Below, piece by piece: positions 14,979 through 35,636 of a DNA stretch of 64,000 nt. Under the pieces are notes generated by a model. That model saw nothing but the letters and a program-made list of their open reading frames with translations, was not told where the DNA came from and ran no database searches. Numbering within the stretch: position 1 is the first letter of the stretch; each line of letters starts with the position of its first letter. Position numbers and translations under genes: made by a program. Source of the stretch: an uncultured Acidobacteriota bacterium. GTDB taxonomy: Bacteria > Acidobacteriota > Terriglobia > Terriglobales > Acidobacteriaceae. Where the stretch lies: positions 62,001-126,000 of the forward strand of contig CAILAC010000002.1 in assembly GCA_903832055.1 (NCBI GenBank). The letters are read 5' to 3'.

Positions 14979-15557
14979 AGAGTTACAGAATTTCCGGGAC
15001 CGTCGCACCACGAGTGTTACGCGCGGAACAATTTGGGGCGCGGTAGCCCCTATCAGAAAAGGAACAACTGAGGGTGGCCTACATCTCGCTTTTGAGATGT
15101 GGGTCTCGGCCAAGCCTGACTCTCTTCACGCATGCGTCCACCATGACTCCATCTCCACCGCGCCTCTGTCTCCCATGATCGATTAGCGGTAGCTTGACCT
15201 TGGCAGGATTGTAAATCGGAAGACAGAGTTGCGTGTCTGTTTTATGAGGGTGTTGGGTTTTGAGAAACCCACATTTCAGAAGCGAGATGTGGGGCACCCT
15301 CAATGGTTACTTTTCCAGATATGGGCCACCCGCCGACTAAGAATACTCTGCTTTGATTAAAGGGTTGAGCTTGGCGAAACCCACATCTCAAAAGCGAGAT
15401 GTGGGGCACCCGCAGTGGTTACTTTTTCAGATCGGGGCCACCCGCCCCGTGAAGCGGGATGTACAAACGACAGGTGCAATCATAGAGGCAGGATGTCCGT
15501 CGTAATCTCACTTTGGATTGCGAATCTTCCGAGGGTCCCAGTGGACTGAAGTGATTG
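14979..15557. repeat. Intergenic block of dispersed GC-rich stem-loop repeats
   Basis: No gene is seen here. Three copies of the family are present: an inverted copy at about 15,072-15,112 and two direct copies at about 15,253-15,334 and 15,366-15,446. Each has an imperfect hairpin of the form CCCACATCTC ... GAGATGTGGGGCACCC followed by 'GGTTACTTTTnCAGAT' and 'GGGCCACCCGCC'. Related copies lie at 17,615-17,758, 20,088-20,117, 30,885-31,012, 32,845-32,999 and 55,706-55,752. Short ORFs that run through these copies are spurious. Confidence 0.8.
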
Positions 15558-16091
15558 TCAGTTGCTGCAAGCGGCGACAGCATCGGAAGACGGAGTCCTC
15601 AGGTACTCCATTGCATCGAGATCGCTCACCCTAAAGTTATGATCGCGAAGAACACGCCGAAAATCGTATGTGGCCGCCTGTGCCAAGTAGATGCCGACGA
15701 TCCCTCTACCGTAAGCATAGTGGAATAGGTAATGGGGACTGGCATCAAAAACGAACCAGGCATCATTATGCAGTCTTGATACAACCTTCGGAGGGAATTT
15801 GAGAAGGCTGTAATCTCCGAGACCCGCGTCCCTACACTTGCGAAAATACGAGAACGAAAATCCATGATGGTCCGTTAAGCACACCTGAAGTTTGTCACTG
15901 CAATCTTCGAGCCTAGTATCCCGTGAGCGTGGTGTGACGAGAGTTTTAGCTTTTGTGTCAAGTTCGATCAACCCCCCAGTCAATAAGGAGAATTTAGCTT
16001 GAATGGCCGGGTGATCTGACCATACCGGTTGAGCGGTCGCTACCGAAAGCAGCGTTGCGAGCACAGTGCATAGTAGGGCAGTGCGCGTCAT
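15558..16091 (-). CDS. Exported protein of unknown function, candidate immunity partner of RHS tip 1
   Basis: The 177-aa product has a clear signal peptide (about residues 1-20, ending ATAQP), is not otherwise recognisable, and carries four cysteines in the mature part that could form disulfides. Its ATG overlaps the stop of the RHS gene in an ATGA junction, so the pair is translationally coupled. In polymorphic toxin systems the gene directly after an RHS C-terminal tip usually encodes the cognate immunity protein. A periplasmic inhibitor of the metallopeptidase-like tip is the inference. No family match is claimed. Confidence 0.6.
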   Translation of the reverse strand: MTRTALLCTVLATLLSVATAQPVWSDHPAIQAKFSLLTGGLIELDTKAKTLVTPRSRDTRLEDCSDKLQVCLTDHHGFSFSYFRKCRDAGLGDYSLLKFPPKVVSRLHNDAWFVFDASPHYLFHYAYGRGIVGIYLAQAATYDFRRVLRDHNFRVSDLDAMEYLRTPSSDAVAACSN

Positions 16092-17512
16092 TGGCAGCCT
16101 CCTGGGATTGAGCAGTCAAAGGAAGCCCCAACCCCTTGGGACATCCGGCTGCCTGCAGAGCTTGCACCATGTTCACGCGGCCAAGAAAGCTCTGGCGTTA
16201 CTGGATATTGGCGCGTCAATGCCTCTCCAAAGTGAGTTTCATGTCCCAGCTCGTGAAAGATCAAGGTGGTGAATCCGACCCGCCAAGGCTCGTTTCGTGC
16301 GCCTGCGGCATTGCCGTAATCCGCAACAACACCCGGATTGAGACGACTTTGACCTGAAAACGAATTTCCACTCCAACTGCCGCCTGTTCCCCCACCCCCA
16401 CCACCGTTATTGAATTGCTGGTTTGTCACGGTAAAGGATGTTCCATTCCAAACGGCCTTGATCTCTTGGCCAGTCATCGAGCCAGTAATCTTCCCGTTCG
16501 AGTCCCGAATATTGAATTTCCCCTTGTCATCCAGAGCATTGACAGCCTTGTCATACTTGTTCAATATGCCTTCCAACTGTTTGCCCGCCCTTGCGCCTGC
16601 CTTTCCCGTATCGGCGTCCACATTCACTTTGCAGGACCCGTCTTTATAGTGATCGGCACAATGCCCGTCGGCATCGAATCTGCTTAACGGGTTGTTGCCG
16701 ACGTATGCGTAGAGGTTCAAGGTCTGCGGATTGTCGAGCTTCGCGTAAGGGACTGGTTCAGCTTTTACCGCCCAATCTGGCGACATCCACCGGCCCATAC
16801 TTGATCCGTAGTACCGGGCCGGGAAGTAATCTAGGCCGCTCTCGCTATCGCGTTCTTTGCCGGTGAAGTGGTTTTCTGTGGCGTCGTCTGCGGTGGCTAA
16901 GCCTGCGGTGAGGGAGCAGTTGAGCTGGTCGCCGAAGGGCAGGCTTTGGCAGGTCTCTTCGATGGATCCTTTGTAGTTGGCCTGCACCCGCCGCGTTCCG
17001 AGCGGGTCGGCGAGGTGAAAGTGCAGCGCGGGGACCTGCGTCGAGACGTTGTTGACCAATTCGGTGACCAGATCGTAGGTCGCCGTGAGGTGCGATCCTG
17101 CCCATACGTTGGAGTGCTTCCAGGCTCCCGCGCCGTCAAGTTCGGTGACCTGGTCGCCGCTTAGGTCGAGCAGGTACTGGTTGGTAAGCTGGAAGCCCGC
17201 CGCCGCTCCCGGAGCCGCACAGGTCGTGTTGGCCGCCGGGAAGGTCCCGGTAAAGGAGGCCTTGCCGACGCGCACTCCGGCGGCGTTGTAGAGGTACTGG
17301 TACTGCGCGACCGGGGTATTCCCAACGAGCACCTGCACGGCGCAGAGCCGCCCTTCAGCGTCGTAGGCGTAGTTGTTTCTGCCGTCGTTGATCACGTTGC
17401 CCGCCGCATCGTAGTAGAAGCCGTTCACCGCTGCATTGAGCGTGGTCCAGCTAACTCTGTTACCAGGAGTATAGCTCGCGTTGACCAGGTTTGCGTTGTA
17501 GCAGTCGCTCAC
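16088..17512 (-). CDS. Orphan RHS core/tip with HExxH metallopeptidase-like C-terminus
   Basis: The frame contains YD-type repeats (about residues 30-90), the RHS core 'HFTGKERDSESGLDYFPARY' (about 215-234, trimmed), 'NPLSRFDADGH' at about 274-284, then a variable tip. The tip has a Gly-rich linker (370-378) and an HELGH motif (420-424), the HExxH zinc signature. The chosen GTG 17512 is only the first start codon; RHS-like codons (YGYDSFGNR) continue upstream to about 17,590 where an in-frame TAG and the repeat block begin. The long N-terminal half of a normal RHS protein, with secretion or PAAR signals, is missing, so this is a displaced tip cassette. Toxin activity is inferred. Confidence 0.78.
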   Translation of the reverse strand: MSDCYNANLVNASYTPGNRVSWTTLNAAVNGFYYDAAGNVINDGRNNYAYDAEGRLCAVQVLVGNTPVAQYQYLYNAAGVRVGKASFTGTFPAANTTCAAPGAAAGFQLTNQYLLDLSGDQVTELDGAGAWKHSNVWAGSHLTATYDLVTELVNNVSTQVPALHFHLADPLGTRRVQANYKGSIEETCQSLPFGDQLNCSLTAGLATADDATENHFTGKERDSESGLDYFPARYYGSSMGRWMSPDWAVKAEPVPYAKLDNPQTLNLYAYVGNNPLSRFDADGHCADHYKDGSCKVNVDADTGKAGARAGKQLEGILNKYDKAVNALDDKGKFNIRDSNGKITGSMTGQEIKAVWNGTSFTVTNQQFNNGGGGGGTGGSWSGNSFSGQSRLNPGVVADYGNAAGARNEPWRVGFTTLIFHELGHETHFGEALTRQYPVTPELSWPREHGASSAGSRMSQGVGASFDCSIPGGCQ

Positions 17513-17591: not shown

Positions 17592-17809
17592 TGCCCTATT
17601 GGTAGATAGGTGAGTCCCACCCTTCGCCAGTGCGCGAAGGATGGGGCACACAGATTGGTTTTTGGGAAGGATCACAAAGGATGCGCCACCCGCCATCGTT
17701 TCGAGATCCCCGGTCCCCAAAGGCGAGAGACCTGGGGCACCCGGTGACCCGCCAGTGGTACGATTCATCGCCCGTTCATACCCCGGCGATAGGCTGATTT
17801 GAGGCACTC
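17592..17809. repeat. Dispersed stem-loop repeats at the 5' break of RHS tip 1
   Basis: Two hairpin units of the dispersed family lie here: one around 17,615-17,665 (CCCACCCTTCGCC ... GCGAAGGATGGGGCAC) and one around 17,701-17,758 (CCCCGGTCCCCAAAGGCGAG ... CCTGGGGCACCC). RHS similarity stops at their edge. No gene is seen between this block and the repressor gene that ends at 17,810. Confidence 0.7.
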
Positions 17810-20061: not shown

Positions 20062-20087
20062 CTTGGTCTGAGATTGGTGGAATCCCA

Positions 20088-20117: not shown

Positions 20118-20152
20118 ATTCCTGCACCTGAATTCCTGCACCCGAATTTCTG

Positions 20153-21559: not shown

Positions 21560-21816
21560 TGTGGAATTTCCTCGGAGTAGCTGCACAGTAATCTTGCCGT
21601 ACTCGGGCGCGGTCGGCAAGCGGGAATCACCAGTGACCCCGATTTTGATGGGATTGGGAGGGCGGGGATGGCGTTCTGATATTCTTCGGGTTAAGGCAGT
21701 GTTTCTGTGATGGGTGCTTGCTCGGGCAAGTTGAGTGCCGTTTTTCGCGCGGGAGAGCTACGCGACAACGGTGGTGGACGAGTTGAGCGATTAGGAGACG
21801 TACAGAATCTGTGCTG

Positions 21817-21984: not shown

Positions 21985-22574
21985 ATCGGATTGCGGAGAA
22001 TGTTGCGGTAGGGTCTGAACTGGTTTCGTCGCCAAGCCTGGCCGAGACTCTGCTGCGGAGCGGCGGTCTTGCGCTGGCCGGCAGCGCGCTGGTGGCGGTT
22101 TGTGCGCACGTGGCGATTCCCCTGGGCTTTACGCCGGTGCCGGTGACTTTGCAGCCGTTTGCCGTGCTGCTGCTAGCACTGCTGATGAGCCCCCGTCTGG
22201 CTTTTGCGACGATGGTTGCTTATCTGGCTGAGGGCGCGGCAGGGTTGCCGGTCTTCACGCCACATGGCCTGGGTGGAGTCGCCCAGTTGCTGGGGCCTAC
22301 GGGCGGATATCTGCTGAGCTACCCGGTGGTGGCTCCGCTGGTCAGCTGGATGCATCGGCAGGGATCGCGCGGTTTCTACCGCAGCGTAGCGATTACTGGT
22401 GCAGGCAGTCTGGTGACGTTGGCCATGGGCGCAGTTTGGCTAGGCCTGTTTACGCACGCGGCGGCGAGCGCAGTCCTGACGCATGCAGTGCTGCCGTTTC
22501 TGCCGGGCGATGTGCTCAAAGTTGTGGCTGCGGCAGGAATTGCCGTTGGAGTATCGCGATTCAGGCGCAGCTAG
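21981..22574 (+). CDS. bioY: Biotin transporter BioY (ECF substrate-binding component)
   Basis: The 197-aa product is a six-helix BioY protein: 'PVPVTLQPFAVLLLALL' near residues 51-67, the 'YLAEGAAGLPVF' loop and 'GPTGGYLLSYP'. BioY binds biotin in the inner membrane and works alone or with the EcfA/EcfT energising module, which is not in this window. GGAG before ATG 21981 and an ATGA overlap with the small upstream ORF support the start. Confidence 0.92.
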   Translation: MNRIAENVAVGSELVSSPSLAETLLRSGGLALAGSALVAVCAHVAIPLGFTPVPVTLQPFAVLLLALLMSPRLAFATMVAYLAEGAAGLPVFTPHGLGGVAQLLGPTGGYLLSYPVVAPLVSWMHRQGSRGFYRSVAITGAGSLVTLAMGAVWLGLFTHAAASAVLTHAVLPFLPGDVLKVVAAAGIAVGVSRFRRS

Positions 22575-22628
22575 CTGCTTGAGTCGTGCGAAAGAAATGG
22601 TCTTTGAAGTTGAAAGGAAGTTTTTGAC

Positions 22629-23501
22629 GTGAGTGACACTTTGACCAGCGCGGGACAGCTTTCGGGGACGCGCACGATCAGCATTGCGCACAGTCCGGAT
22701 TCGGACGATGCCTTTATGTTTTACGGCCTGGCAACGAACAAGATTCGCGTGCCGGGATTCAAGTTCACACATACGCTTTGCGACATTGAGACGCTGAACA
22801 AGCGGGCGATGGACGAGGCGTTCTTTGACATCACAGCGGTTTCGTTTCACGCCTATCCCTACATTCAGGAAAACTACACGCTGATGAGCTGCGGCGGCAG
22901 CGTCGGTGAGGGCTACGGACCGATGGTGGTTTCGAGCCGTCCGATGACGACTGACGACTTGAAGAAGATCAAGATCGCTGTGCCGGGCACGATGACGACG
23001 GCTTACCTGGCGTTGAAGATTTTCAATCCTGAAATCGAGACTGAAGTGGTGCCTTTTGACCAGATCATTCCTGAGATTCAGGCGGGTCGGTTTGAGGCGG
23101 GTCTGATCATTCACGAGGGGCAGTTGACCTACGCGACCAGCGGTCTGCGCAAGGTCATTGACCTGGGAGTTTGGTGGCGCGAGCAGACCGGCCTGGTGCT
23201 GCCGCTGGGCGGCAATGCCGTGCGACGCAGCCTGGGAGCAGAGACGCTGCACACGGTCACGCAGGCGCTGCGAGACTCGATTCAACATGGGCTGGACAAC
23301 CGCGAGCAGGGGCTGGAGTACGCGATGCAGTTTGCACGCGACCTGGACGTGAACCTGGCGAACCGCTTCGTGAGCATGTACGTCAACGAACGGACACTCA
23401 GCTACGGGGCCGACGGGCAAGAGGCGATTCGCCGGCTGCTGGCTCTGGGGCACGAGCGGGGAATTATTCCCATTGCCCCCAAGGTTGATTTCGTCGACTA
23501 G
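22629..23501 (+). CDS. MqnD-like 1,4-dihydroxy-6-naphthoate synthase (futalosine menaquinone pathway)
   Basis: The 290-aa product has the periplasmic-binding-like fold of the MqnA/MqnD family: 'IAHSPDSDDAFMFYGL' at the N-terminus, 'DITAVSFHAYPYI' and 'LPLGGNAVRR'. MqnD converts cyclic de-hypoxanthine futalosine to 1,4-dihydroxy-6-naphthoate. The N-terminal motif differs slightly from canonical MqnD, so a sister family is possible. GTG 22629 is preceded by GGAAG. Menaquinone made this way would serve the respiratory chain; other mqn genes are not in this window. A terminator follows. Confidence 0.75.
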   Translation: MSDTLTSAGQLSGTRTISIAHSPDSDDAFMFYGLATNKIRVPGFKFTHTLCDIETLNKRAMDEAFFDITAVSFHAYPYIQENYTLMSCGGSVGEGYGPMVVSSRPMTTDDLKKIKIAVPGTMTTAYLALKIFNPEIETEVVPFDQIIPEIQAGRFEAGLIIHEGQLTYATSGLRKVIDLGVWWREQTGLVLPLGGNAVRRSLGAETLHTVTQALRDSIQHGLDNREQGLEYAMQFARDLDVNLANRFVSMYVNERTLSYGADGQEAIRRLLALGHERGIIPIAPKVDFVD

Positions 23502-23531
23502 TTTGTCAGGTTGAAAATCAAACGAAAATCG

Positions 23532-23578
23532 GCTCGCGGCATCTGGAAAGAACTTTTCTCGATACCGCGAGCTTTTTT
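23532..23578 (+). terminator. Rho-independent terminator after mqnD-like gene
   Basis: GCTCGCGG (23,532-23,539) pairs with CCGCGAGC (23,565-23,572) and is followed by a run of six T. It lies 30 nt after the stop. Confidence 0.75.
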
Positions 23579-25248
23579 CAATTGCTTGCGCGGAATGGCT
23601 TCTGAGCGCTTTCGCTCTGTTCTTCAACGCGAAATCTGGACATGACAGCACTGAGGCTGACGGCGAGTTCACTGAGGGCTTCGCAGGCTTTAGCTGATTG
23701 TCGGGCTCCGGAGGCAGTCAGATCAGAGATTTTGGCAATCTCGCTGACGGAGTGATTCACTTCTTCGGTGGTGCTGGTTTGATGCGTCGCGGCAGCAGCA
23801 ATCTGGTTTACCATGATTGCTGCCTCCTGTGCGCCATCGATAATCAGCCGCAGCTTGATGCCCGCTTCTCCAGTCGCTGTCACTCCTTTGCTTACCTGAA
23901 TGGTTCCCTTGCTCATGGCTTCGACGGCGGCTTCAGTTTCCTGCTGGATGGCTCCAATCATTTCGGCGATTTCCTTGGTCGCTTTGGCGGTGCGTTCGGC
24001 CAGGTTGCGCACTTCACCAGCGACGACGGCGAATCCGCGCCCCTGTTCACCGGCGCGTGCCGCTTCGATGGCAGCGTTGAGCGCGAGCAGGTTGGTGCGA
24101 CCGGCAATTTCGTCGATGACATCGACTATCTGCCCGACCTGGGTCGAGCGCTCGCCGAGACCGGCAATCTGGGCCGAGACGCGACCGACGGATTCCGTGA
24201 CACTCTGCATCATGGCAATTGTCTGATCGACTACCTGCCCACCGTCAGCCGCGTCTTCGGCGGCTTTACGAGTTTTGAGGGCGGCGTTGTTGGAATTGCG
24301 GGAGACTTCGAGGACCGTTGCCGACATCTCGTGCATCGCCGAGGCTACATGGGCTGTCTGGCCTTGCTGGGTTTCGGCTCCCAGGGCCATCTGGGCTGCT
24401 GATGCCGTCAGCTCTTCGCTGGCTGCGGCCAGCTTAACGGTGTTGGCTTTGACCTGGCGCATGGCGTCCTGCAGCTTGTTGAGGAACTCGTTGAACCAGA
24501 TACCGACTTCGTCAATTTCATTTTTCCCTACAATGAGCACGCGCTGGGTAAGATCGCCCTCACCTTCCGCAATATCCTGAATGCGAAGTGCAAGCGCTCG
24601 CAGCGGCAGAACCACCTTGAACTGAACGACCCACCAGGTCGCAGCGCAACTCATCAGGGCAAAGACGCACATCACCGTTCCGGTAACTCGGCTGCGAAGA
24701 GACCATGCATCGACGGTATCCAACTGAGCCTGAAAGTCCGAAGCAATGTCTTTGTCAAAGGCTGCCATCGTGTCCGACAGATCTTTGTTTTGTTTCCCAA
24801 GTTTGCTCATCTGCGCCATCATGTCGTCGCCGGGAGTGCCCTTTGCATTGAGCACAGCGGCATAGAACTCATGATCGCGTGCACGCATCGCAGTGAATCG
24901 GCTAGCGAGACTATCTGCCTTGCTGCCCAAACCAGGTATTTGTTGCAGCGCCGTTCTCACAAAAGTGATAGAAGCCTCGGTTTGTTCGGCATCCTTTTCG
25001 GCATTGTCAAAGGATGCCTGGTCCTGAAGAACGATAGCGTCTCCATAATGCTTTTTCATGCGCTCGTAGCTGGCCTCCGCCTCCTGTGTACGCAGAGCGG
25101 CGGGAAACAGGGCCGACGAAATCTGCGACATCCGGTTATGGGTGATGGAGGCAGAGATCAGAACCATCGCGAGCACCAGGAGGTATCCGGCAACCAGGAC
25201 GCTGAGGATACTCAGAATGCGCGACTTGATTTTCATCGACTGGAACAT
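23578..25248 (-). CDS. Methyl-accepting chemotaxis protein
   Basis: The 556-aa product has an N-terminal membrane helix (about residues 12-33), a four-helix-bundle ligand domain (to about 190), a second helix, a HAMP domain, and a long cytoplasmic signalling coiled coil with the conserved hairpin '[20 protein letters not shown]' (trimmed). There is no obvious C-terminal CheR-binding pentapeptide. ATG 25248 is preceded by AGGTAGG and lies 3 nt after the stop of a PBP-like gene. With the porin it forms an operon, so it may sense a solute bound by that periplasmic protein. Confidence 0.93.
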
Positions 25249-25251
25249 GAC

Positions 25252-25674
25252 CTACCTCACCGCCAGAACTTTGACGCCATCATGAGGAGTCGCAGCGCTG
25301 ATGTAGCCAACCGCGCCGGCATTATGGGCAACGTAGTCAACGACGGCTGCCTCGGAGTCCAGTGACTTTGGCATGGAGGCCTGACCTGAAAAGACGAGGC
25401 TGCGCCATGTCGCGCGGAAGGCTGCGTCGTTTTTGCCAATATATTCCGAGAGGAACTGGTCGTTGACTCCTCCTGCTTTGAGCAGGACGGGGGTGACTTT
25501 CGAGCCGTCTTTCAGACTCGATAAGCCTCCCGTAAACACATCTCTAAGGTCTGATTTGGCGACGGTTGCAGATTTGACGCTGTTGTTTGCGATCACCAGG
25601 ACTTCGGCGTATGCCTGACTCGCCGAGGGGAGCATGGCAGCCACGAGAAGGAGCAAGCAAAACTTGATTTTCAT
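25252..25674 (-). CDS. Short periplasmic PstS-like substrate-binding protein
   Basis: The 140-aa product has a signal peptide (about residues 1-22) and half-length PBP-like sequence: 'VLVIANNSVKSATVAKSDLRD' trimmed at the N-terminus and 'AVGYISAATPHDGVKVL' at the C-terminus, resembling phosphate-binding PstS fragments. Full PstS proteins are about 300 aa; this shorter form recurs beside porins and signalling genes. ATG 25674 is preceded by AAGGAG; an upstream frame to 25,755 overlaps the porin end. It probably presents a ligand to the adjacent chemoreceptor. Ligand unknown. Confidence 0.7.
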   Translation of the reverse strand: MKIKFCLLLLVAAMLPSASQAYAEVLVIANNSVKSATVAKSDLRDVFTGGLSSLKDGSKVTPVLLKAGGVNDQFLSEYIGKNDAAFRATWRSLVFSGQASMPKSLDSEAAVVDYVAHNAGAVGYISAATPHDGVKVLAVR

Positions 25675-25699
25675 GGGGATATTCTCCTTTCGATGAGAT

Positions 25700-26875
25700 T
25701 TAGAAGCTGACGCCGATTTTGAGGACGGTGAGCTGGGTATCGGGCTTGAGTCCATCGGGATTCAGAGCCGTGTCATAGTCCAGCGCAGTACCGTGAACAA
25801 AGTGCTGTTCTGCCTTGGCGTAGAAATACTGGTTAAAGTCGTAGCGCGCTGCAATGGCCCAATCCAGTGAGTCCCGAGCTGGCCCCAGTAAGGCATGGTG
25901 GTCAACGGACTGGCTGTTATAGACGCCGGCAGTGAACCTGTCTGTGACCTTATAGCTCGCCATGGCAAACCAGGCGCGCTGATCAATCCGAAGCGGATTT
26001 GTGGGCAACGGAGCCAGGACGACCGCTCCGGAAACAGGTAGGCGATTCCATTCTGCGGCAACCATGAGCTTGTCTTTTTCGTAGCGGGCAAAGAAGTTTT
26101 GTGTATTGAGAGGATTGATGATCTCCTTGCCCTGCAAGGCTCCGCCGCCAGCGGTAATCACAGACGACCATTTGGCATCTTTGATGTCAGAGGCACCGAT
26201 CATGAGTCCGGGGATGGGGGTTTTCCAGCGGAGCGCGCCTCCGAGGGTGACGCCGCTCAGACCGTTGGGCAGGTCCAGTCCGCTCTCTTTTTGTGTGACG
26301 AAATAGCCGTCATCGGTGCCCAGGACGCGTTCTCCACCCCAGGCGCGATACTCCAGTTTGCCCAGTTTTTCTCCGAGTTTAACGGTGCCATAAACGACGC
26401 CACCGTAGTGGGCCAACAGAGAGTTGCGGCTCCCAATCGGGTAGACGCCCTGCGGCAGCAAGGCCCAAAGATACGAGGGATCGATATCCTGAATTTCGTT
26501 GTAGAGACCCGATGGGGTCTTCACTTTTCCAAAGCGGATGCCAAAACGGTCATCAACCTTGTAGTCGGCCGAGGCCCAGTCAAGGGTAATGGCGTTGCCA
26601 AAGTTGCCGAGCAGAAAGTACCGACCCTGCACACCGATGCGCAGTTTAGGGATGGGCTGCGCCGTAATGTTGACCACCGCTTCAGTCCAGGCCGGGCTCC
26701 CGTCACTGGAGCTGGTAGTGAACATGTTGTTTTGCGTGGTGTAAAGGAAGCCCTGCGTGGCATAGCCGTGGACCTGAATATTCAAATCATCGAGGCTCTG
26801 CGCCTGGGCGGTGGAAAGTATTGCGCTCAGGGCGAAAACCGCAAGCAGGATTTGCCTCTTCAATGGTGTCAGCAC
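25700..26875 (-). CDS. Outer-membrane porin
   Basis: The 391-aa product has a signal peptide (ending AQAQ) and alternating amphipathic strands, ending in a C-terminal Phe. It resembles the porin O/P-type 16-strand family. GTG 26875 is chosen since AGGA lies 8 nt before it and the signal peptide follows; in-frame starts at 26,896 and 26,959 lack a ribosome site. It leads an operon with a PBP-like protein and a chemoreceptor. Substrate is unknown. Confidence 0.78.
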   Translation of the reverse strand: MLTPLKRQILLAVFALSAILSTAQAQSLDDLNIQVHGYATQGFLYTTQNNMFTTSSSDGSPAWTEAVVNITAQPIPKLRIGVQGRYFLLGNFGNAITLDWASADYKVDDRFGIRFGKVKTPSGLYNEIQDIDPSYLWALLPQGVYPIGSRNSLLAHYGGVVYGTVKLGEKLGKLEYRAWGGERVLGTDDGYFVTQKESGLDLPNGLSGVTLGGALRWKTPIPGLMIGASDIKDAKWSSVITAGGGALQGKEIINPLNTQNFFARYEKDKLMVAAEWNRLPVSGAVVLAPLPTNPLRIDQRAWFAMASYKVTDRFTAGVYNSQSVDHHALLGPARDSLDWAIAARYDFNQYFYAKAEQHFVHGTALDYDTALNPDGLKPDTQLTVLKIGVSF

Positions 26876-27174
26876 GTGGTGTGTCCTTTCCGACATAAAT
26901 TTGCGTGTAGCTGTCTCATCGGCAGACAACCGAACTGCGTGAGTATCAACCTGGGTCAAGCTCCAACTTGTTCAAAAAATCATCTTTTGCACGCAGTCCA
27001 CCCAAACCGGTGTTCCAGGATGGAACCTCAGGATTCGAATCATCAATCGGAGTAGCGAAGGTCGCGTTGAATGTTGCTCGATGTATTTGTGTTTTGAAAT
27101 GACTAAGCCCGACAAGGAATTGAGGCTAAGGATTTCTTAATCGCTGACGATAAGCAGTGTGTGGAGGAAGACCC

Positions 27175-28194
27175 ATGCACTCGAAAAACCTGCCTGACGG
27201 GCCGCACCCAAAGGCGTTGCTGGTTTCGCTCGATTCGTTGCTCAAATCTCAATTGCAGTGCTTCTTTGAAGCGTTCGGCATGCCGCTTGAGATGGTCTGC
27301 TGCGCTGGGGCAGTCATTGATGCCGCTTACAGCACCGCTGCGCCTAAAGTGATATTGCTTGATTGCAGGCTGCCAGCAGTTGCCCAAGGTCAGATGCTGG
27401 CCGCTTTGCATGAGGCGGGAATACGACGCATCTGCGCATTGGCAATGATTGCAAACGAGGTCTCAGATGAGTGGATTGCGCGGCTTCGAGAGGGAGCAAT
27501 TGACGATATTGTTCCGCGCGATGCCGACAGCGGCGCGTGGCGGGCTCATCTCAGCGCGATGAAGAGAGGTCATGCGCTGTTTTGCGAACTGGAGAATTTG
27601 CGGGAGACGGCACATTTTGCGCTCGATCTTGACAGGGTGACCGGGGCTTTCAACCGGGAGACGATGCTGTCGATTCTCTTCAGAGAGACCGACCGGGTAC
27701 AGCGGCAGAGGGGGGCGCTCTGCGTGGTGATGTTTGACGTGGATGACTTTGCCCATTGGAAGAGCGAGCTTGGCGCCGAAGTTGGAGACTTGTTGTTGCG
27801 AGAGATGGCGGAACGGACGGGCCGCATCATGCGCAGTTACGATGCGCTGGGCCGGATGGCCGACGAGCGTTTCATGATGGTGCTGCCGGGATGCAGCTTG
27901 ATCAATGCAGAAATGCTGGCCGAGCGAATGCGGCTGGAGGTGTTCGGCGAATTATTTGTCATGACGGACCGGAACCAGGAACGTGTGCCGGTGCGAATGA
28001 CGGCTTCGTTTGGGTTGAATTCAAGCCGCGGGCGTTCACCGGTAGTTGTTGTGCAGGAGGCTGAACAGGTACTGGAAGGCGGGAAATTGGAGGGACCGAA
28101 CTCGATTCGAACTGTGAGCGATACTCCGCCCAGACTGAGGAGTGACGAGGATGCTTTGCGGCTTTTTCCAGAGGTTGAGTTGCTGATGGGATAG
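27175..28194 (+). CDS. Receiver-like/degenerate GGDEF protein
   Basis: The 339-aa product has an N-terminal receiver-like domain (about residues 14-125, Asp63 in ILLDCRLP) and a C-terminal GGDEF-like domain (about 155-310). The metal-binding 'FDVDDF' is present, but the active-site loop reads ADERF (229-233) instead of GGDEF, so c-di-GMP synthesis is unlikely. Such domains often act as GTP or c-di-GMP sensors. ATG 27175 follows GGAGGAAG. It is divergent from the porin/chemoreceptor operon and ends in a strong terminator. Confidence 0.82.
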   Translation: MHSKNLPDGPHPKALLVSLDSLLKSQLQCFFEAFGMPLEMVCCAGAVIDAAYSTAAPKVILLDCRLPAVAQGQMLAALHEAGIRRICALAMIANEVSDEWIARLREGAIDDIVPRDADSGAWRAHLSAMKRGHALFCELENLRETAHFALDLDRVTGAFNRETMLSILFRETDRVQRQRGALCVVMFDVDDFAHWKSELGAEVGDLLLREMAERTGRIMRSYDALGRMADERFMMVLPGCSLINAEMLAERMRLEVFGELFVMTDRNQERVPVRMTASFGLNSSRGRSPVVVVQEAEQVLEGGKLEGPNSIRTVSDTPPRLRSDEDALRLFPEVELLMG

Positions 28195-28214
28195 GTTTCT
28201 CATTTTGACGACGC

Positions 28215-28250
28215 GGCCCCAGGTCTCCGGCAGAGGCCTGGGGCCTTTTT
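28215..28250 (+). terminator. Rho-independent terminator
   Basis: GGCCCCAGGTCTC pairs with GAGGCCTGGGGCC (one bulge or mismatch) followed by TTTTT. It lies 21 nt after the GGDEF stop. The stem shares the CCCAGGTCTC core with the dispersed repeats. Confidence 0.85.
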
Positions 28251-28333
28251 GCGCGTGAGCATGAGCAAAGTTGATATGAATCTTTGCGTCAGCAGACAGT
28301 ATCTTGAGTGTAGAGATCAAGGAGGGTTGAACC

Positions 28334-28546
28334 ATGGCGGAAGTGACTTTACGGATTGACGGGATGCATTGCGGGTCGTGCGTGCGCAGGGTGACGCAGA
28401 CCATTGGCGCAGCGGGTCCGTATGCGGTGAAGGAAGTGCGCATTGGAGCGGCTCGCTTTGAGGTTTCGGCGGCCGATGCCACCACGGTGGAGCCGGTGAT
28501 CGCGGCGATGGCCAAGGCCGGGTTCAAGGCACACCTGGAGGCTTAG
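28334..28546 (+). CDS. copZ: Heavy-metal-associated (HMA) domain protein, CopZ-like
   Basis: The 70-aa product is a single HMA domain with GMHCGSC near the N-terminus, the metal-binding MxCxxC loop. Such proteins carry Cu(I) to P-type ATPases. AGGAGG precedes ATG 28334. Its TAG shares one base with the GTG of the downstream ATPase. A copper role rests on the pairing with CopA. Confidence 0.88.
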   Translation: MAEVTLRIDGMHCGSCVRRVTQTIGAAGPYAVKEVRIGAARFEVSAADATTVEPVIAAMAKAGFKAHLEA

Positions 28547-30780
28547 TGGCGACAGAGACGGTGGAAATGCCGGTGCTGGGGATGACGTGCGCGGCATGTC
28601 AGCGGCACGTGGAGGCGGCCTTGACGGCTGCCCCTGGGGTGACGGCAGCGCGCGTTGACCTGATGCGGCACCGGGCGCGGGTGGAGTTTGACCCGGCGAT
28701 CGCCGGGCCGGAGGCCCTGGTGGAGGCGATTCGCGAGTCAGGCTATGACGCCGTTTTGCCGCGGAGCTCTGGCGTTGCCGCACCTGTGGTGACGGATGCC
28801 TGGGCTGGGATCAAGGCCGGGCTGACGATTGGGGCAGGTGTTGTGGCGATGGTGGCGGCGATGCCGCTCGGCTCACCTGCGTCCATGGGACGAATGGACC
28901 ACGGGTTGATGCAGTTGTTGCCGTGGCTCTACGCGCTGCCGGCTTCAGGGCTTCGCTGGGGATTGCTGCTGGTGACGGCGGTGCTGGCAGTGTGGGCGGG
29001 CGCGCCGATTTACCGCAGCGCATGGAAGGCGATGCTGCACCGCGAGACGAATATGAACACGCTGGTTTCGCTGGGAACTGGGGTGGCGCTGGTGTATTCG
29101 GCGTGGGTAACGGTGCTGGGCGGGCGGGGCGAGGTCTACTTTGACTCGGTGCTGCTGATACTTGGGTTTCTGCTGCTGGGGAAGTGGCTTGAGGGGCGTG
29201 CCCGGCATGCGGCTTTGGCTGCTGTGGATGCGCTGGCGCAGTTGCTGCCGGCGAAGGCGCGGGTAAGGCGAGGTGCCGAAGAGGTGCTGATCCCTCTGGA
29301 TGATGTGCGGGTTGGGGATCTGGTGGTGATCTTGCCGGGGGAGCGGATGCCGGCGGATGCGCTGATTGAGTCGGGCCGGACGACGGTGGATGAATCCATG
29401 CTGACGGGGGAATCTGTGCCGCTGCAGCGCGGAATGGGCGGGCGAGTGCTGGCCGGCAGCCTGAACTACGACGGAGCGGTGGCGGCGCGGGTGGAGCAGG
29501 CTGGCGAAGGGACGACGCTGCGGCAGATTGCGCGGCTTGTGGAGCAGGCGCAGGGTTCGCGTGCGCCCATGGAGCGGCTGGCGGACCGGGCCAGCGCGGT
29601 GTTTGTGCCGGTGGTACTGGGGTTGGCGGTGCTGACGTTTGTGGGCTGGCTGGTCGCGGCGCATGATCTGACGCAGGCGGTGGCGGCAACTGTGGCGGTG
29701 CTGGTGATTGCCTGCCCTTGCGCGATGGGGCTGGCGGTGCCGGCGGCGCTGACGGTGGCGATTGGGCGCGGGGCGCAGATGGGTGTGCTGATCAAGGGCG
29801 GCGAGGCGCTGGAGCGGCTGGCCGGACTGCAAGCCGTGGTGATGGACAAGACCGGGACGCTGACGATGGGCACTCCCACGCTGGTGGGGATTGGCGTGCT
29901 GGGGGATTTCGCGGAGGAGAGCCTGCTGCGCATGGCGGCGACGGCTGAGGATCATGCGGCTCATCCGCTGGCGCATGCGGTGGTGGAGGCGGCGCGGAAG
30001 CGCGGGTTGACATGGAGTGCGGCCGAGGATGTGCAGGCAGCGCCGGGGCGAGGTTTGGCGGCAACGGTTGAGGGCCGCGCTGTGTTGCTGGGCAATGTGG
30101 AGCTGATGCAGGAGTGGTCAGTTCCCTGCACCGGAGAAGCTGCAGAGGCTGGCGTTACCCGGCTTTGGATGGCGGTTGAGGGCAAGCTGGCTGGGTACTT
30201 CGATGCCATTGACACTGCGCGACCGGCGGCGAAGGCCGTGGTTGCCTGGCTGCATTCTGCGGGGCTGACGGTGGAGATGCTTACGGGCGACTCGGCGCGG
30301 GCGGCGGAGACGGTGGCTGCGGCGGTGGGGATTTCCGAGGTCCGCGCGGGGCTGATGCCTGCCGACAAGGTGAGCCGGATCAGGGAGTTGCAGGCTGGCG
30401 GCGTGCGCGTGGCGATGGTTGGCGACGGCATCAATGATGCTGCTGCGCTGGCGCAGGCGGATGCGGGCATGGCGATGGGTGCGGGAGCGGCGCTGGCGCA
30501 GGAGGCTGGAGACGTGCTGCTGATGCAGAGCGATCCGCAGGGGATTTGCACGGCGATTGCGCTGGCGCGGGCAACGGTCAAGGTGATGCGGCAGAATCTG
30601 GGTTGGGCGATGGGCTACAACGTGGTGGGGATTCCGCTGGCTGCGGGGCTGCTTTGGCCCGTGTTTCATGTGATGCTGACGCCGTGGATGGCAGCGGCGG
30701 CGATGGCGTTCAGTTCAGTAAGCGTGCTGGCGAACAGTCTGCGGCTGCGAGGTTGGCGAGGGCCTGAGCTGGCGGGTTGA
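28546..30780 (+). CDS. copA: P1B-type copper-transporting ATPase CopA
   Basis: The 744-aa product has an N-terminal HMA domain (GMTCAAC), a TGES actuator loop, the intramembrane CPC in IACPCAMG, the DKTGTLT phosphorylation motif, an HP motif in 'DHAAHPLAHA', GDGIND, and the YN-GIPLAAG last helices of Cu(I) ATPases. It would export Cu(I) from the cytoplasm using ATP. The GTG start overlaps the copZ stop by one base. No copper-sensing regulator is adjacent; the CsoR-type gene at 17,810 is 10 kb away and carries RcnR-type ligands. Confidence 0.93.
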   Translation: MATETVEMPVLGMTCAACQRHVEAALTAAPGVTAARVDLMRHRARVEFDPAIAGPEALVEAIRESGYDAVLPRSSGVAAPVVTDAWAGIKAGLTIGAGVVAMVAAMPLGSPASMGRMDHGLMQLLPWLYALPASGLRWGLLLVTAVLAVWAGAPIYRSAWKAMLHRETNMNTLVSLGTGVALVYSAWVTVLGGRGEVYFDSVLLILGFLLLGKWLEGRARHAALAAVDALAQLLPAKARVRRGAEEVLIPLDDVRVGDLVVILPGERMPADALIESGRTTVDESMLTGESVPLQRGMGGRVLAGSLNYDGAVAARVEQAGEGTTLRQIARLVEQAQGSRAPMERLADRASAVFVPVVLGLAVLTFVGWLVAAHDLTQAVAATVAVLVIACPCAMGLAVPAALTVAIGRGAQMGVLIKGGEALERLAGLQAVVMDKTGTLTMGTPTLVGIGVLGDFAEESLLRMAATAEDHAAHPLAHAVVEAARKRGLTWSAAEDVQAAPGRGLAATVEGRAVLLGNVELMQEWSVPCTGEAAEAGVTRLWMAVEGKLAGYFDAIDTARPAAKAVVAWLHSAGLTVEMLTGDSARAAETVAAAVGISEVRAGLMPADKVSRIRELQAGGVRVAMVGDGINDAAALAQADAGMAMGAGAALAQEAGDVLLMQSDPQGICTAIALARATVKVMRQNLGWAMGYNVVGIPLAAGLLWPVFHVMLTPWMAAAAMAFSSVSVLANSLRLRGWRGPELAG

Positions 30781-31305
30781 GCTGGGAGTTATAGGACCTC
30801 TGGGTGTTTACCTTTTAATTACAGGAAGCCTTTGAAAATAAAGAGGGGGGGGGATACTTCTCTTTTTGATGACCATGATTGGCGGGTGGCCCAAATCTCA
30901 CTTTTTTCTCTCCTGAGGGTGCCCCACATTGGTTAATTTCAGATCTGGGCGAGTGGCCGAACTCTCATCCCCGGTCCCCAAAGGCGAGGGACCGGGGCCA
31001 CCCGCCTGGGGTGAACGAAAGCCATCTCGTGACCTTGAATGGGCACTCTCGCACCCAGCAGTAGGCCGGGTGTCCGCATAGAAGCATCATGGTCTGTAGC
31101 TTAGGGCCGTATCGATGGTTGGTGAAGCGGTTTCGCCCACCGTTTAGGTGATGCAGCGCGATTCAAACCGGAGCTCTGGTCCTCAACCTCTCTGGCAAAA
31201 ATCGCGGCGCTCACGCACCGCACAGGAAATCTGTGCATTGACAAAGCCTTCGACCTGATCGAGGGCCACCCGCCTGGGCCACCTGTCAGCAAAAGGTCAG
31301 TCCGT
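30781..31305. repeat. Intergenic region with dispersed repeats (left flank of RHS module 2)
   Basis: No gene is supported here. A run of nine G lies at about 30,845. A dispersed repeat spans about 30,885-31,012, and a further short copy of 'GGCCACCCGCCTGGG' occurs near 31,264-31,278. The segment 30,928-30,997 is repeated in direct orientation at 32,898-32,967 with one mismatch. Confidence 0.75.
30928..30997 (+). repeat. 70-bp direct repeat, left copy
   Basis: This segment is identical to 32,898-32,967 but for one base (C at 30,945 versus A at 32,915). The two copies are 1,970 bp apart and flank the RHS tip/immunity-like pair. Confidence 0.9.
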
Positions 31306-31686
31306 TTACCAACCATCCAAGATTGCCAGAGTAATCGCAAGAAAAGCGGAGCCAAGTAAAGTCAGCCCATAGGAGATGATCGCAGGCAGCAAGTTCACGT
31401 CGCATCCAAGATTGCAAATAAGTTTCCTGGTCTTCCGATACGCAGCTAAGGTCATAAGCGAAAGCATCAGTGGAATGAATATGTTTACCACTACTACGGA
31501 AAGCAGGCTGAATTGCGATCCACTTTCGTTCCTCCGGAGCAATCTAAAAGCTCCTATTCCCTCCAACACTAGGAATTGAAAAATACAGAACACAACTGCT
31601 GACCAAAATTGCGCCCCATTTACAAAACCTGTTTGCGTCGGAACAGGATTAGTAGGGACAGGAGGATTTTCACTTGACTCGTTCAT
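31306..31686 (-). CDS. Three-helix membrane protein, candidate immunity partner of RHS tip 2
   Basis: The 126-aa product has a short polar N-terminus rich in Pro/Asn and three predicted membrane helices (about residues 25-45, 55-80 and 95-120). Its ATG at 31,686 overlaps the RHS stop as ATGA, the same junction as in module 1. A longer frame up to 31,827 exists but would run into the RHS gene. No family is recognised. Position and coupling suggest an integral-membrane immunity protein against a membrane-acting toxin tip. Confidence 0.6.
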   Translation of the reverse strand: MNESSENPPVPTNPVPTQTGFVNGAQFWSAVVFCIFQFLVLEGIGAFRLLRRNESGSQFSLLSVVVVNIFIPLMLSLMTLAAYRKTRKLICNLGCDVNLLPAIISYGLTLLGSAFLAITLAILDGW

Positions 31687-32868
31687 CGATAGCACCCCGT
31701 CGAAATGCCGAACACTCCCAAAAGAACGGCGACGCCCTTCAATACCTTTCCTACAGCCGGATTTAAGAAATCTGCTCCATACCCGGCCGCACCCATGAGA
31801 ACAGTGTCGGTTTTGATTTGGTTGCACTGATCTTTGTGCGTGTCAAAAGTCTCTGGATAGCCGCCATTTGGCTTCCACCGTGGATCAAATGGCCCGATAC
31901 GGTTGTATGGTGGTTGCACTCCATTACTTGAGCCGCCTGATGCGCCTGATCCCCCGCCGGGCGATGAACCCTGAGGGTCATATGCTGCAGAAGAACTGGA
32001 AATCGTTATGGACCCGCATGGCGTTCCACCGCAGTTGAGATTACCGTATTCGTCCACGGTAATTCCGGACCCCAGCTGATCAGGGACAATCAGCGAGAGG
32101 GCGAGTAGTGAGTAGGTGGTGGAAATTCCACTGGAATTGATCGTTGCGTAGTAATCCCACCCAAAATTGCTCGCAGACATTTCCAAGCCTCCGTAAAATG
32201 CTCCGCCCCCGCCGCCACTACCGCACCCTAGTGAAGCAAGTAGATAGCAGATAGAGGGATCGCTATCATCGCCATCTGGGTCGGTGTAGAACATGGGATT
32301 ATCGAGCACGTATGCATACCGGTTATAGCTTTGTGGATTTCCGAGACTGTAACTCCCGGTGTAATGGTCGGGGCTCAGCCATCGCCCCTGCGTATTCGAG
32401 TACTGCCGATACAGCGCGTGGTCTGTGTTCGATGTGGAATCGTAATCCAGCGCTGCGAAGTAGTACGAGTCACCCCCCGACTCAGTCGTCTGGGCATCCC
32501 CAAAGGGCAACGATGTCAGCGTAGCTTCCACGCCCCCATTGTACGTCGTGCGCACCCGCTCCGTACCCAGCCAATCCTGATGCTCAAAGTGACTCTGCGC
32601 GCCGGGATTGTAGTACGCAACCGGGCGCGCCCCCCCAGTAATACTGCCCCTGCAACTGGTGGTTGCTCGAGTCCCAGATCGAAACCCGCTGACCGCCCGC
32701 ATTGAAAACGAAGTTCGTCACCGTCGCCCCTACCGTCGTGCTCACCCGCTGATTCAATGCGTTATAGGTGTACTGCGCCGTGCTGCCGTTATCGACCTTG
32801 GTCACACCTCGCTCCGCACCGTAACAAGCTTCTTCTCTGCGTAAAAGGTTGAGCTTGGAGAAACCCAC
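31683..32868 (-). pseudogene. RHS core/tip fragment, 5'-truncated and frameshifted
   Basis: RHS YD-repeat sequence ('YTYNALNQRVSTTV') begins right after the dispersed repeat near 32,845. It reads in one frame to about 32,637, where a run of seven C on the plus strand (32,630-32,636) shifts the frame; with six, the frame continues as 'GARPVAYYNPGAQ'. The rest holds the RHS core (HFEHQDWLGTERVR, 'YSNTQGRWLSPD', 'YVLDNPMFYTDPDG') and a unique tip of about 200 residues, Gly/Ser-rich, ending in a hydrophobic helix. The N-terminal bulk of an RHS protein is absent. The tip frame itself is intact, and the overlapping downstream gene is kept. Confidence 0.75.
32630..32636. other. C7 homopolymer at RHS frameshift
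   Basis: A run of seven C (G7 on the coding strand) marks the point where the RHS frame breaks. One base less restores a continuous reading frame. It may be a phase-variable tract or a sequencing error. Confidence 0.7.
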
Positions 32869-33197
32869 ATCTCAAAAGCGAGATGTGGGGCACCCTCATT
32901 GGTTAATTTCAGATATGGGCGAGTGGCCGAACTCTCATCCCCGGTCCCCAAAGGCGAGGGACCGGGGGCACCCTCAGTGGTTGCTTTTCAGATCTGGGCG
33001 ACAGGTCGTTTGTTTGATTTGCTGGGAAGTGCCGGGGGAGAAGCAGATTCCCTGCGGGAATGACAACCAAAAAGGCAATGGCAAGGGCAGAAGCAACAGC
33101 AGGTCCTTCACTGCGTGCAGGATGACAAGTTGGTTTATTCGGGGGTGGGGAAATGGGGTTTGGGGTGGGGCTGTAGACTCTTTGCAGGCGCTTAATT
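32845..33197. repeat. Dispersed repeats (right flank of RHS module 2) and non-coding leader
   Basis: Two tandem hairpin units lie at about 32,860-32,895 and 32,938-32,975; 32,898-32,967 is the right copy of the 70-bp direct repeat. From 33,000 to the lptFG start no gene is seen; a purine-rich stretch 'GGGGGTGGGGAAATGGGG' lies just before it. Confidence 0.75.
32898..32967 (+). repeat. 70-bp direct repeat, right copy
   Basis: This segment matches 30,928-30,997 with a single mismatch, same orientation. See that entry for the arrangement. Confidence 0.9.
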
Positions 33198-35636
33198 GTG
33201 AAGATTCTTAGTCGGTACATTTTCGGGGAGATTGCTTCGCACTCGTTGATTGGGTGTGCGCTGTTTACGTTCATTTTGTTCATGAAGGACCTGGGGCACA
33301 TTCTGGAGATGGTGGTCCGGAACAGCTCAAGCCTGGTGGCTGTGGCGCAGATTTTTCTGTTTACGCTGCCGAATACGTTTCTGGTGACGATTCCGATGGC
33401 GGTGCTGGTGGGGGTGCTGCTGGGGCTGAGCCGGCTGGCTGCGGACTCTGAGATTACGGCGATGCGGGCGTCGGGGTTTGGCATCTGGTATTTCGTCAGG
33501 GTGGCGTCGGTGGTGGCGTTTATCGGGACGGGGCTGGGGCTGGTGAATTCGCTGTATGTTGCGCCGCGGGCCAATCAGGCGATTTTGGATATGCAGCGCG
33601 AGCTGGAGACGGCGCAGGCGTCGTTTGAGATTCAGCCGCGCGTGTTCTATGAGGACTTCAAAAACACGGTTATTTATGTGCAGGATGTGCGGGCGGGGAC
33701 GGGTGTTTCGAACTGGCGGCAGTTGTTTATAGCCGATGTGAGCGACCCGACGGCACCGAGGATTACGACGGCAGAATCCGCGACGGTGGCCGAGGATGTG
33801 GGCGAAAACCGGGGTCAGGGGCTGCTGATCAGGCTGCGCAACGGGGCAGAACATGAGTCGGGGCATGAGAGTGCTGCTGGAATCTCTGGCCAGGCGGGGC
33901 AGTACAACATTTCTACGTTTGCGACGACGGACCGGCCGCTGACGTTCAATCCGCAAAGCGACATTCATCTGGGCCGGATGGACACGCCGATTTTTGCGAT
34001 GGGGAACCGGCAGTTGCTGAAGGAGATTCACGCGGCAAAGCCGGGGGATGCGGCGGGGAAGCATTACCTGATTGAGCTGAACCGGCGGCTGGCTTTCCCG
34101 GTGGCGTGCCTGGTGCTGATGCTGATTGGGGTGCCTCTGGGGACTGCTTCGCGGCGAGGCGGCAAGAGCAGCGGGTTCATTTTTACGATTTTGCTGGTGC
34201 TGGTGTACTACGTGCTGTCGAATTTTGGCATTGCCTGGGCGAAGCAGGGGCGTTTGCCTGCGGTGGCCGGGGTGTGGCTGGCCAATGTGGTGTTTGCGGC
34301 GGCGGGCTTGTTTTTGCTGAGCCAGATGGCGAGCGGCGGCAAGGTGCTGAGCGCAATTTCTGGCTGGTTTACGCGACGGCCCACGGCGCGGGCGCTGACC
34401 GCTGAGGAACTGCGGCTGGAAGCGGAGCGGAGCGCGGAAAAAGACTGGCAGACGGCGGCGAAGGAGCGTTGGCGGCGGCGGTTTCATCCTCCGCTGACGC
34501 AGACGTTTCACCGCTTCAAGCGGCGGGGGTTTCCGCTGATATTGGATGAGTATGTGCTGCGGGAGTTCATGCAGACGTTTTTGATGGTGCTGCTGGGGCT
34601 TGTGCTGCTGATGCTGGTGTTTACGTATTTTGAACTGGTGCCGGATATCTGGCGGAACCATCCGGGAGTAACGACGATTGGGGCATATCTGCTGAATCTG
34701 GCGCCAAGGATGCTGTACCAGATGACGCCGCTGGGGGTGCTGATTGGGGTGCTGGTGACGTTTGGCGTGCTGAACCGGTCGAGCGAGCTGATTGCGATGA
34801 AGGCGACGGGGATCAGCATTTACCGGCTGGTGATTCCGGTGCTGGTGATTGCGGGGATTTTGGCGGGGGGCTTGTTTGCGTTTGACCAGTACTACCTGCC
34901 GCAGGCGAACCGCAAACAAGAGGCGTTGCGCAACATCATCAAGGGGCGGCCGGCGCAGACGACGCTGAATCCTGACCAGAAGTGGATTTTTGGGCAGCAG
35001 CGGGCGGGGGAGCCGGGAAGGATTTTCTACTACCAGTTCTTTGACCCCGACCAGGATGCGTTCGCAAACCTGAGCCTTTTTGAGTTTGACCCGGTGACGT
35101 TTTCGCTATCAAAGCGGATATTTGCAGGGCGAGCGGTGTGGGATGCGCGGCAGCGGATGTGGAGCTTTGAGAATGGCTGGGAGCGAACGATGCAGGGGGC
35201 AAATGTGACTGGCTTCCGGGAGTTCCAGCAGGCGAGCTTTGCCGAGGTGCACGAGGAGCCGGGCTACTTCAAAAAAGAGAGCCTGCAATCGCAGGAGATG
35301 AACTTTGGGCAGTTGCAGCGGTACATCAGTGACCTGCAGCAGAGCGGTTTTGACACGATCAGACTGCGGGTGCAGCTGTATGACAAGCTGGCGTACCCGA
35401 TGGTGACGATTGTGATGGCGGTGCTGGCGATACCGTTTGCGCTGTCGATGGGCAGGCGCGGTTCGCTGACCGGGGTGGCGGCGGCGATTGGGATAGGCCT
35501 TGGGTACTGGGTGATTGCGGGGTTGTTTGACGCGATGGGGAGTGTAAATTACTTGCCGTCGGCGGTGGCGGCGTGGTCGCCGGATATCTTGTTTGGGCTG
35601 ACGGGCGGATATTTGCTGCTGCGGACTCCGACATAG
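33198..35636 (+). CDS. Fused LptF-LptG-type LPS export permease
   Basis: The 812-aa product holds two LptF/LptG (YjgP/YjgQ) units in tandem: about residues 1-400 and 455-810, each with N-terminal and C-terminal membrane helix groups around a periplasmic beta-jellyroll. The second unit begins 'LILDEYVLREFMQTF', the usual start of these proteins, after a basic linker of about 50 residues. LptF and LptG, normally separate about 360-aa chains, pair with LptB2 to extract LPS from the inner membrane. A single chain of 812 aa would fix a 1:1 ratio. GTG 33198 begins at the first helix; the ribosome site is weak. Confidence 0.88.
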   Translation: MKILSRYIFGEIASHSLIGCALFTFILFMKDLGHILEMVVRNSSSLVAVAQIFLFTLPNTFLVTIPMAVLVGVLLGLSRLAADSEITAMRASGFGIWYFVRVASVVAFIGTGLGLVNSLYVAPRANQAILDMQRELETAQASFEIQPRVFYEDFKNTVIYVQDVRAGTGVSNWRQLFIADVSDPTAPRITTAESATVAEDVGENRGQGLLIRLRNGAEHESGHESAAGISGQAGQYNISTFATTDRPLTFNPQSDIHLGRMDTPIFAMGNRQLLKEIHAAKPGDAAGKHYLIELNRRLAFPVACLVLMLIGVPLGTASRRGGKSSGFIFTILLVLVYYVLSNFGIAWAKQGRLPAVAGVWLANVVFAAAGLFLLSQMASGGKVLSAISGWFTRRPTARALTAEELRLEAERSAEKDWQTAAKERWRRRFHPPLTQTFHRFKRRGFPLILDEYVLREFMQTFLMVLLGLVLLMLVFTYFELVPDIWRNHPGVTTIGAYLLNLAPRMLYQMTPLGVLIGVLVTFGVLNRSSELIAMKATGISIYRLVIPVLVIAGILAGGLFAFDQYYLPQANRKQEALRNIIKGRPAQTTLNPDQKWIFGQQRAGEPGRIFYYQFFDPDQDAFANLSLFEFDPVTFSLSKRIFAGRAVWDARQRMWSFENGWERTMQGANVTGFREFQQASFAEVHEEPGYFKKESLQSQEMNFGQLQRYISDLQQSGFDTIRLRVQLYDKLAYPMVTIVMAVLAIPFALSMGRRGSLTGVAAAIGIGLGYWVIAGLFDAMGSVNYLPSAVAAWSPDILFGLTGGYLLLRTPT

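Follow-up and report, generated by a model that had tools for sequence, protein, structure and literature searches.

To our knowledge, the way in which orphan Rhs tips reach places without Rhs homology is poorly explained, and a locus in the 64 kb stretch of DNA analysed here (referred to as the window) raises this question directly. Two Rhs modules lie in the window, and the second of these (module 2) is set between a heavy-metal P-type ATPase gene and an lptFG-type gene and is bracketed by a pair of direct repeats. How did the module come to lie between these two genes, and do the repeats have a part in it? The analysis set out below suggests that hairpin repeats of this kind can serve as docking sites for the gain or loss of cassettes; at one of them, it appears, a cassette was acquired in the fairly recent past. 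If dispersed repeats associated with REP-associated tyrosine transposases (RAYTs) do supply the homology, then a long-known intergenic repeat would have a part in the spreading of bacterial competition weapons, and this docking idea is directly testable.

The repeat pair and the module between its copies

The preliminary description of the window had reported 70-bp near-perfect direct repeats on either side of an RHS tip/immunity pair, and the repeats themselves were borne out. Positions 30928-30997 and 32898-32967 are identical at 69 of 70 bases in direct orientation, the sole mismatch being TTCAGATCTGG in one copy and TTCAGATATGG in the other. A repeat search over the entire window extended the pair to 90-bp copies (30914-31003 and 32884-32973) in the same orientation with 92% identity, within which the best-matching part comprises 81 bp with 96.3% identity (Table 1). 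When a 30-base piece of the repeat was searched for in the window, it was found twice, once in each copy, compared with no match in 100 shuffles. Comparison of the repeat with the whole 4.57-Mb genome (G000) returned 13 matches, i.e. the two copies themselves (90 bp at 100% and 81 bp at 96%) and 11 partial matches, ten of which cover 33-45 bp and one 75 bp at 81%. The full composite is thus present only twice in the genome, both times at module 2.

As to what lies between the copies, the Rhs half of the proposed pair is real, and the immunity half is a matter of position. The core domain in window 32271-32507 (C2:94271-94507 in contig numbering) matches TIGR03696 (Rhs_assc_core) with 45 bits against a cut-off of 32.5, and the fragment that contains it is 5'-truncated with a broken frame (ORFs 32584-32868 and 31683-32702). 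An Rhs core without the N-terminal part, as in orphan modules, was found both here and in module 1 (45 bits and approximately 63.9-66.4 bits respectively). Neither the small ORF behind the tip nor a longer frame in the same place has a family match above cut-off, so that the term putative immunity gene refers to its position, and outside G000 the small ORF gave one marginal match (E 9.9e-4) in 300 genomes of the family. The stretch behind this ORF has a counterpart on contig C3, where it likewise follows a different Rhs tip with its small ORF.

The ORFs of at least 80 aa scanned between the copies (Rhs frames and the small ORF) do not include a recombinase gene of the module's own, and an integrase- or recombinase-borne cassette was rejected since the unit holds no recombinase family. 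A plasmid or phage origin was also rejected, as 30860-33010 has no match in the plasmid and phage collections. We found no confirmed relative elsewhere of either the module 2 tip or the Rhs region of contig C11; both searches used exact peptide patterns, near records possibly fall outside their scan, and they carry little weight. Eight Rhs cores above cut-off are present in the genome, and a full-length Rhs gene, for which the preliminary description had proposed to search, is not among them: PF05593 gave no match at E <= 0.05 in the genome, and the frames of the eight cores reach at most 515 aa, two of them being cut by contig ends.

Table 1. Positions in the window of the genes, Rhs fragments and repeats at modules 1 and 2
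Feature	Position	Strand	Remarks
Element E: inverted A hairpins around decayed RAYT gene end	15053..15335 (283 bp)	.	RAYT remnant 15069-15197, - strand
Further A repeat at module 1	15364..15446	+	87% to 15252-15334
ORF behind module 1 Rhs tip, putative immunity gene by position	15558..16091	-	No family
Module 1 Rhs tip fragment	16088..17512	-	TIGR03696, ~63.9-66.4 bits
Two hairpins, 5' side of module 1	17616..17742	+	AAGGATGGGG-type ~17616-17648; B hairpin 17706-17742
Heavy-metal P-type ATPase gene, left neighbour of module 2	28546..30780	+	Pfam E1-E2_ATPase, Hydrolase, HMA above cut-off
Inverted A repeat remnant, cut in hairpin stem	30881..30929	-	Foot GGCGGGTGGCCC and TGAGGGTGCCCCACAT; from comparison with other A copies
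Left copy of 81-bp composite (A tail + B hairpin)	30923..31003	+	96.3% to 32893-32973; contains 30928-30997
Stretch behind small ORF	31202..31274	-	Common to C3:1633-1705, 94.5% over 73 bp
Small ORF, putative immunity gene by position	31306..31686	-	126 aa
5'-truncated Rhs tip fragment, two frames	31683..32868	-	Core domain 32271-32507
A hairpin at truncated 5' end of Rhs fragment	32864..32889	+	
Right copy of composite	32893..32973	+	B hairpin from 32937, where G002 homology resumes
lptFG-type gene, right neighbour of module 2	33198..35636	+	Pfam LptF_LptG

Identity of the repeats

The composite is made up of two parts, of which the right is a hairpin of a type that we call B (ATCCCCGGTCCC...GGGACCGGGG) with a foot of GCACCC or CCACCC, and the left comes from the tail of another type, A (CCCACATCTC...GAGATGTGGGGCACCC), a tail that ends in GGGCCACCCGCC in other copies. 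Since a hairpin finder at loose settings gave many doubtful matches, repeat counts were based on strict patterns, which were chosen after the modules had been seen. One degenerate hairpin pattern matched the genome 78 times compared with 3 matches for the reversed control, i.e. a short palindrome with many dispersed copies as is usual for RAYT repeats, and the A tail pattern gave 13 matches compared with 0. The stems vary at several positions with pairing kept, and 341 of 350 cells pair in 35 distinct stems that had been preselected for at most two stem mismatches, the best of 1000 arm shuffles reaching 305.

Seven Y1-transposase genes are present in the genome and one of these, at C10:227251, scores as a REP-associated tyrosine transposase (NF047646, 101.6 bits, cut-off 80). 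This gene is flanked on both sides by inverted B hairpins and its 3' end runs into the repeat; the repeats thus have a cognate gene for an IS200-like tyrosine transposase in the same genome, set between inverted copies. As B hairpins bracket the RAYT gene and A hairpins enclose a decayed RAYT end in the structure that we term element E, both parts of the composite are RAYT-associated palindromic repeats. Element E recurs twice each on C12 and C16 and once on C9; among the matches listed, the RAYT remnant is present at least in the copy in the window, in both of those on C12, in one on C16 and in that on C9. Module 1 is bounded by members of the repeat family on both sides, as had been stated in the preliminary description, with element E and a further A repeat on one side and two hairpins on the other.

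By eye, the hairpin ends of the listed copies carry no GTAG or CGTC tag, their feet being GCACCC or CCACCC, and an assignment to the tagged REPs (GTAG/CGTC) of PMC3733652 was rejected on this basis. The B foot GGGGGCAC fits the TIR motif GGGGWSAS at seven of eight positions, with G in place of W; this motif is given in PMC3733652 for some TIRs only. A search of Rfam over window 14900-33200 returned a single match, fstAT, with 25.4 bits against a gathering threshold of 72 and away from the repeats.

Two further observations were made on repeats of this general kind. A second RAYT-type gene at G000:C2 ~403.7-404.6 kb (L120 1096-1994) has different, longer hairpins (TCCCACCTTAAAAACG...) alongside, three of them at 128-bp steps. 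In addition, of the 47 matches that could be placed (53 of the 78 were entered and six were unplaceable), 41 follow the local GC skew in their strand; the copies at module 1, at C12:208-209 kb and at C16:1135 kb make up five of the six exceptions. A tie of repeat orientation to replication was set aside, as the skew changes sign within contigs and gene orientation is the simpler cause.

The module 2 site in relatives and the repeats at other Rhs loci

Module 2 could not be aligned between the ATPase and lptFG genes in any of eight genomes of the same family. The aligned ends of the two genes are 23-151 bp apart in seven of them (G001, G004, G006, G009, G013, G014 and G016), and G010 has 2.7 kb of different sequence in this place. 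Module 2 is also absent from G002, the closest relative found, with 97% identity in the lptFG protein. A single B hairpin lies upstream of lptFG in G002, and its foot is doubled, with GGGGGCACCCGCC and GGGGGCACCCTCC adjacent to each other behind the hairpin; the G002 sequence differs upstream of this hairpin. Alignment of G002 to the window ends on the left at 30881, which is the edge of the inverted A remnant, and resumes on the right at 32937, the start of the B hairpin in the right copy, with 163 bp of other sequence between. The preliminary description had looked to relatives for an empty site holding one repeat copy, and G002 matches this in having one hairpin and no module; however, its ATPase gene is gone, which makes it a one-copy site and not a clean empty site. 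In G002 the last bases of the ATPase gene are joined to sequence that looks glycosyltransferase-like by eye and whose G000 counterpart adjoins the C11 Rhs array. The intergenic DNA that flanks the module is 79-81% identical between G000 and G002, whereas the two repeat copies are 96% alike, and on this comparison the pair probably arose after the two species had split.

The lptFG locus of G002 (C68; L039 14700-20000) can be described as a rearrangement breakpoint, since G002 joins to it genes from beside the C11 Rhs array of G000. Upstream of lptFG in the window, 33023-33128 belongs to a separate intergenic repeat family with copies at several other loci, some of them arrayed. At the module 1 locus, G002 also has Rhs genes beside CsoR-like and OprB-like genes, and in G011 and G006 the CsoR-like gene is preceded by other ORFs.

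The association of the repeats with Rhs cores was then assessed by nearness, for which the p values given here overstate significance because the null consisted of random positions in the whole genome, not intergenic ones, and because the modules had been seen before the patterns were chosen. Six of the eight cores in G000 lie within 3 kb of a repeat match compared with 8.6% of random places (p ~1e-5), and five of the eight within 3 kb of an A tail compared with 1.2% (p ~1.5e-8). Within 1.5 kb, the numbers are four of eight for the hairpin pattern (p 3e-4) and three of eight for the A tail (p 1.6e-5). With the window modules left out and the C11 pair counted once, three of five loci are still near a repeat in either test (hairpin pattern, p 0.005; A tail, p 1.4e-5). 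The distance from Rhs cores to repeats is therefore shorter than for random places, as measured against genome positions and not against the random intergenic positions named in the preliminary description. They are not special to tip cassettes, being RAYT-associated and dispersed, and most of the matches in the genome are not near Rhs.

Among relatives that are richer in the repeat, a strict match occurs within 3 kb of four of the 18 cores examined (G002 2/3, G001 1/4, G010 1/3, G006 0/5, G011 0/1 and G012 0/2). None of the seven cores in G004 (10 matches compared with 8 for the control) and G008 (4 compared with 5) is near a repeat. Six of these cores belong to G004, whose matches are at control level and none of whose cores has a pattern match nearby; Rhs cassettes do not depend on these repeats. 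This survey covered 25 of 34 cores in the relatives, the other nine being those of G005, G007, G009 and G014; per-genome counts of repeat matches are complete, positions are those among the matches listed, and the contigs of several relatives end near an examined core.

Several junctions between repeats and Rhs sequence were also found. A single A-hairpin/Rhs junction recurs at the ends of contigs C11 and C12, where the sequence past the hairpin belongs to different tail subtypes; an exchange within the hairpin would leave such a pattern. The terminal sequence of C16 is homologous to the tail of the C16:54 module, and this homology breaks off at approximately the first bases of a repeat foot. 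RAYT remnants adjoin two Rhs modules in G002, a 148-bp direct repeat with 84% identity, made up of hairpin and Rhs start, flanks an Rhs module in G001 (C14; L189 11654-13428), and two + strand hairpins that differ in type from each other flank an Rhs core in G010. Direct repeats across the core were found for nine of 30 Rhs cores (33 cores were entered and three dropped for cut-off flanks) compared with two of 150 random places. Of the nine, at least five (two on C11 and those of C16:54, G002 and G001) lie in or include Rhs sequence, a tally that does not extend to the nature of the two in G006 and the one in G008. The case of a bracketing repeat formed by the palindromic composite alone is module 2.

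Some of these loci have further features of their own. The Rhs tip module at G000:C16 ~53.8-56.9 kb (L136 5807-8924) starts just behind a tRNA-Pro gene, its flanking 303-bp direct repeat (94%) takes in the tRNA end and the Rhs start, and an ORF behind it matches a NikA-like mobilization protein with 28.7 bits (cut-off 27). The start of C3 and the ends of C11, C12 and C16 in G000 all lie in one conserved Rhs stretch with 115 identical bases, and therefore the assembly has broken up at least two more Rhs modules. Near the end of C12 (L149 ~7610-7660), a short palindromic insert that is missing from the C11 copy lies inside the Rhs frame, and a stretch similar to it is present in an Rhs gene of G002.

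Possible routes of the cassette and comparison with known systems

We put at roughly even the chances that the module 2 cassette, together with such repeats, was gained at a site with a resident B hairpin, most likely by homologous recombination between repeats. The site between the ATPase and lptFG genes would already have carried a B hairpin, and the incoming cassette, consisting of the orphan Rhs tip and the putative immunity gene, would have borne A-B repeats of its own. Entry would most likely have been via homologous recombination between repeat copies, by analogy with displaced Rhs tips that recombine through Rhs-core homology, and the event would have left the composite on both sides of the cassette, from where recombination between the copies could remove it again. 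We infer a gain rather than a loss, homologous recombination as its agent, the form of the donor and any ongoing exchange. A length of 81 bp is short for recombination, which counts against this account. The preliminary description had proposed that recombination between the repeats could insert, swap or delete cassettes, and the one-copy site in G002 with its breakpoints at 30881 and 32937 argues for insertion; swapping found no support.

The main rival is neutral co-location, in which the repeats and decaying orphan Rhs sequences share dispensable DNA and the pair would represent a local duplication or one doublet that landed twice, with no role in moving the cassette. Such a reading, which we consider possible if somewhat unlikely, is consistent with the broken frame of the module 2 Rhs fragment, with the position of most repeats away from Rhs, with the existence of Rhs tips without repeats and with REPs being known as intergenic repeats. 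However, it does not lead one to expect that G002 homology stops at repeat boundaries on both sides of the module, that the same repeat-Rhs junction is found at two places together with the 148-bp direct repeat in G001, or that Rhs nearness also holds outside the window (three of five loci).

A movement made by the RAYT itself, in which the transposase takes the outer repeats as ends and moves repeat, cassette and repeat together as single-stranded DNA in the manner of a composite element, seems improbable to us. The genome does encode a REP-associated transposase with B hairpins, and RAYT remnants lie beside Rhs modules in G000 and G002, but the direct orientation of the module 2 copies differs from the inverted one of the hairpins at the RAYT gene, neither a target site nor joined ends were seen at the module, and the RAYT gene is on another contig, so that the link is one of proximity. 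The loss of an old module in G002 by recombination between copies, with one hairpin left behind, would fit the adjacent feet GGGGGCACCCGCC and GGGGGCACCCTCC behind its single hairpin but is very unlikely, as the copies are much more alike than the flanks and the pair looks younger than the split, as the small ORF has one marginal match outside G000 in the 300 family genomes, and as the doubled foot may be a simple tandem duplication.

To return to gain at a resident hairpin, a wider form of this idea would be a genus-wide docking of Rhs tip/immunity cassettes at RAYT repeats, in which the repeat is fused to the Rhs 5' end and cassettes are gained, duplicated or lost by repeat-repeat exchange, possibly with involvement of the transposase; we regard this extension as rather doubtful. 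RAYT repeats and orphan Rhs tips are each known, and their combination would be new: we found no report of RAYT/REP repeats bordering rhs in the open papers, a search whose scope takes in few subscription-journal papers, and the word rhs is absent from PMC6006769 and PMC3733652.

The repeats themselves most resemble REPtrons and TIRtrons, i.e. the RAYT/TIRYT-associated palindromic repeats described in PMC3733652, in which a tyrosine transposase group of Acidobacteria is also named. Common to both are small dispersed hairpins that are single, paired or grouped, and inverted copies round an IS200-like tyrosine transposase gene that overlap its 3' end. In contrast, the hairpin copies read here have no GTAG tag and fit GGGGWSAS only in part, and a long composite bordering Rhs fragments is not part of the tyrosine transposase section of that paper. 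Element E is similar to the BIMEs (bacterial interspersed mosaic elements) of PMC2817692 in that its hairpins alternate in orientation and have a common spacer; however, this spacer is a decayed RAYT gene end, and element E is therefore better seen as an internally deleted RAYT element than as a BIME. With the orphan Rhs modules of Salmonella (PMC3967940), the modules examined here have in common a core fragment that lacks the N-terminal part and precedes a small gene, as well as direct repeats across the modules. The homology for recombination in the displaced-tip model for Salmonella is a 522 bp Rhs sequence (PMC3967940), to which those direct repeats that lie in or include Rhs sequence (at least five of nine) correspond, whereas module 2 is bracketed by a palindromic composite and is flanked by ATPase and lptFG genes, not by a main rhs gene.
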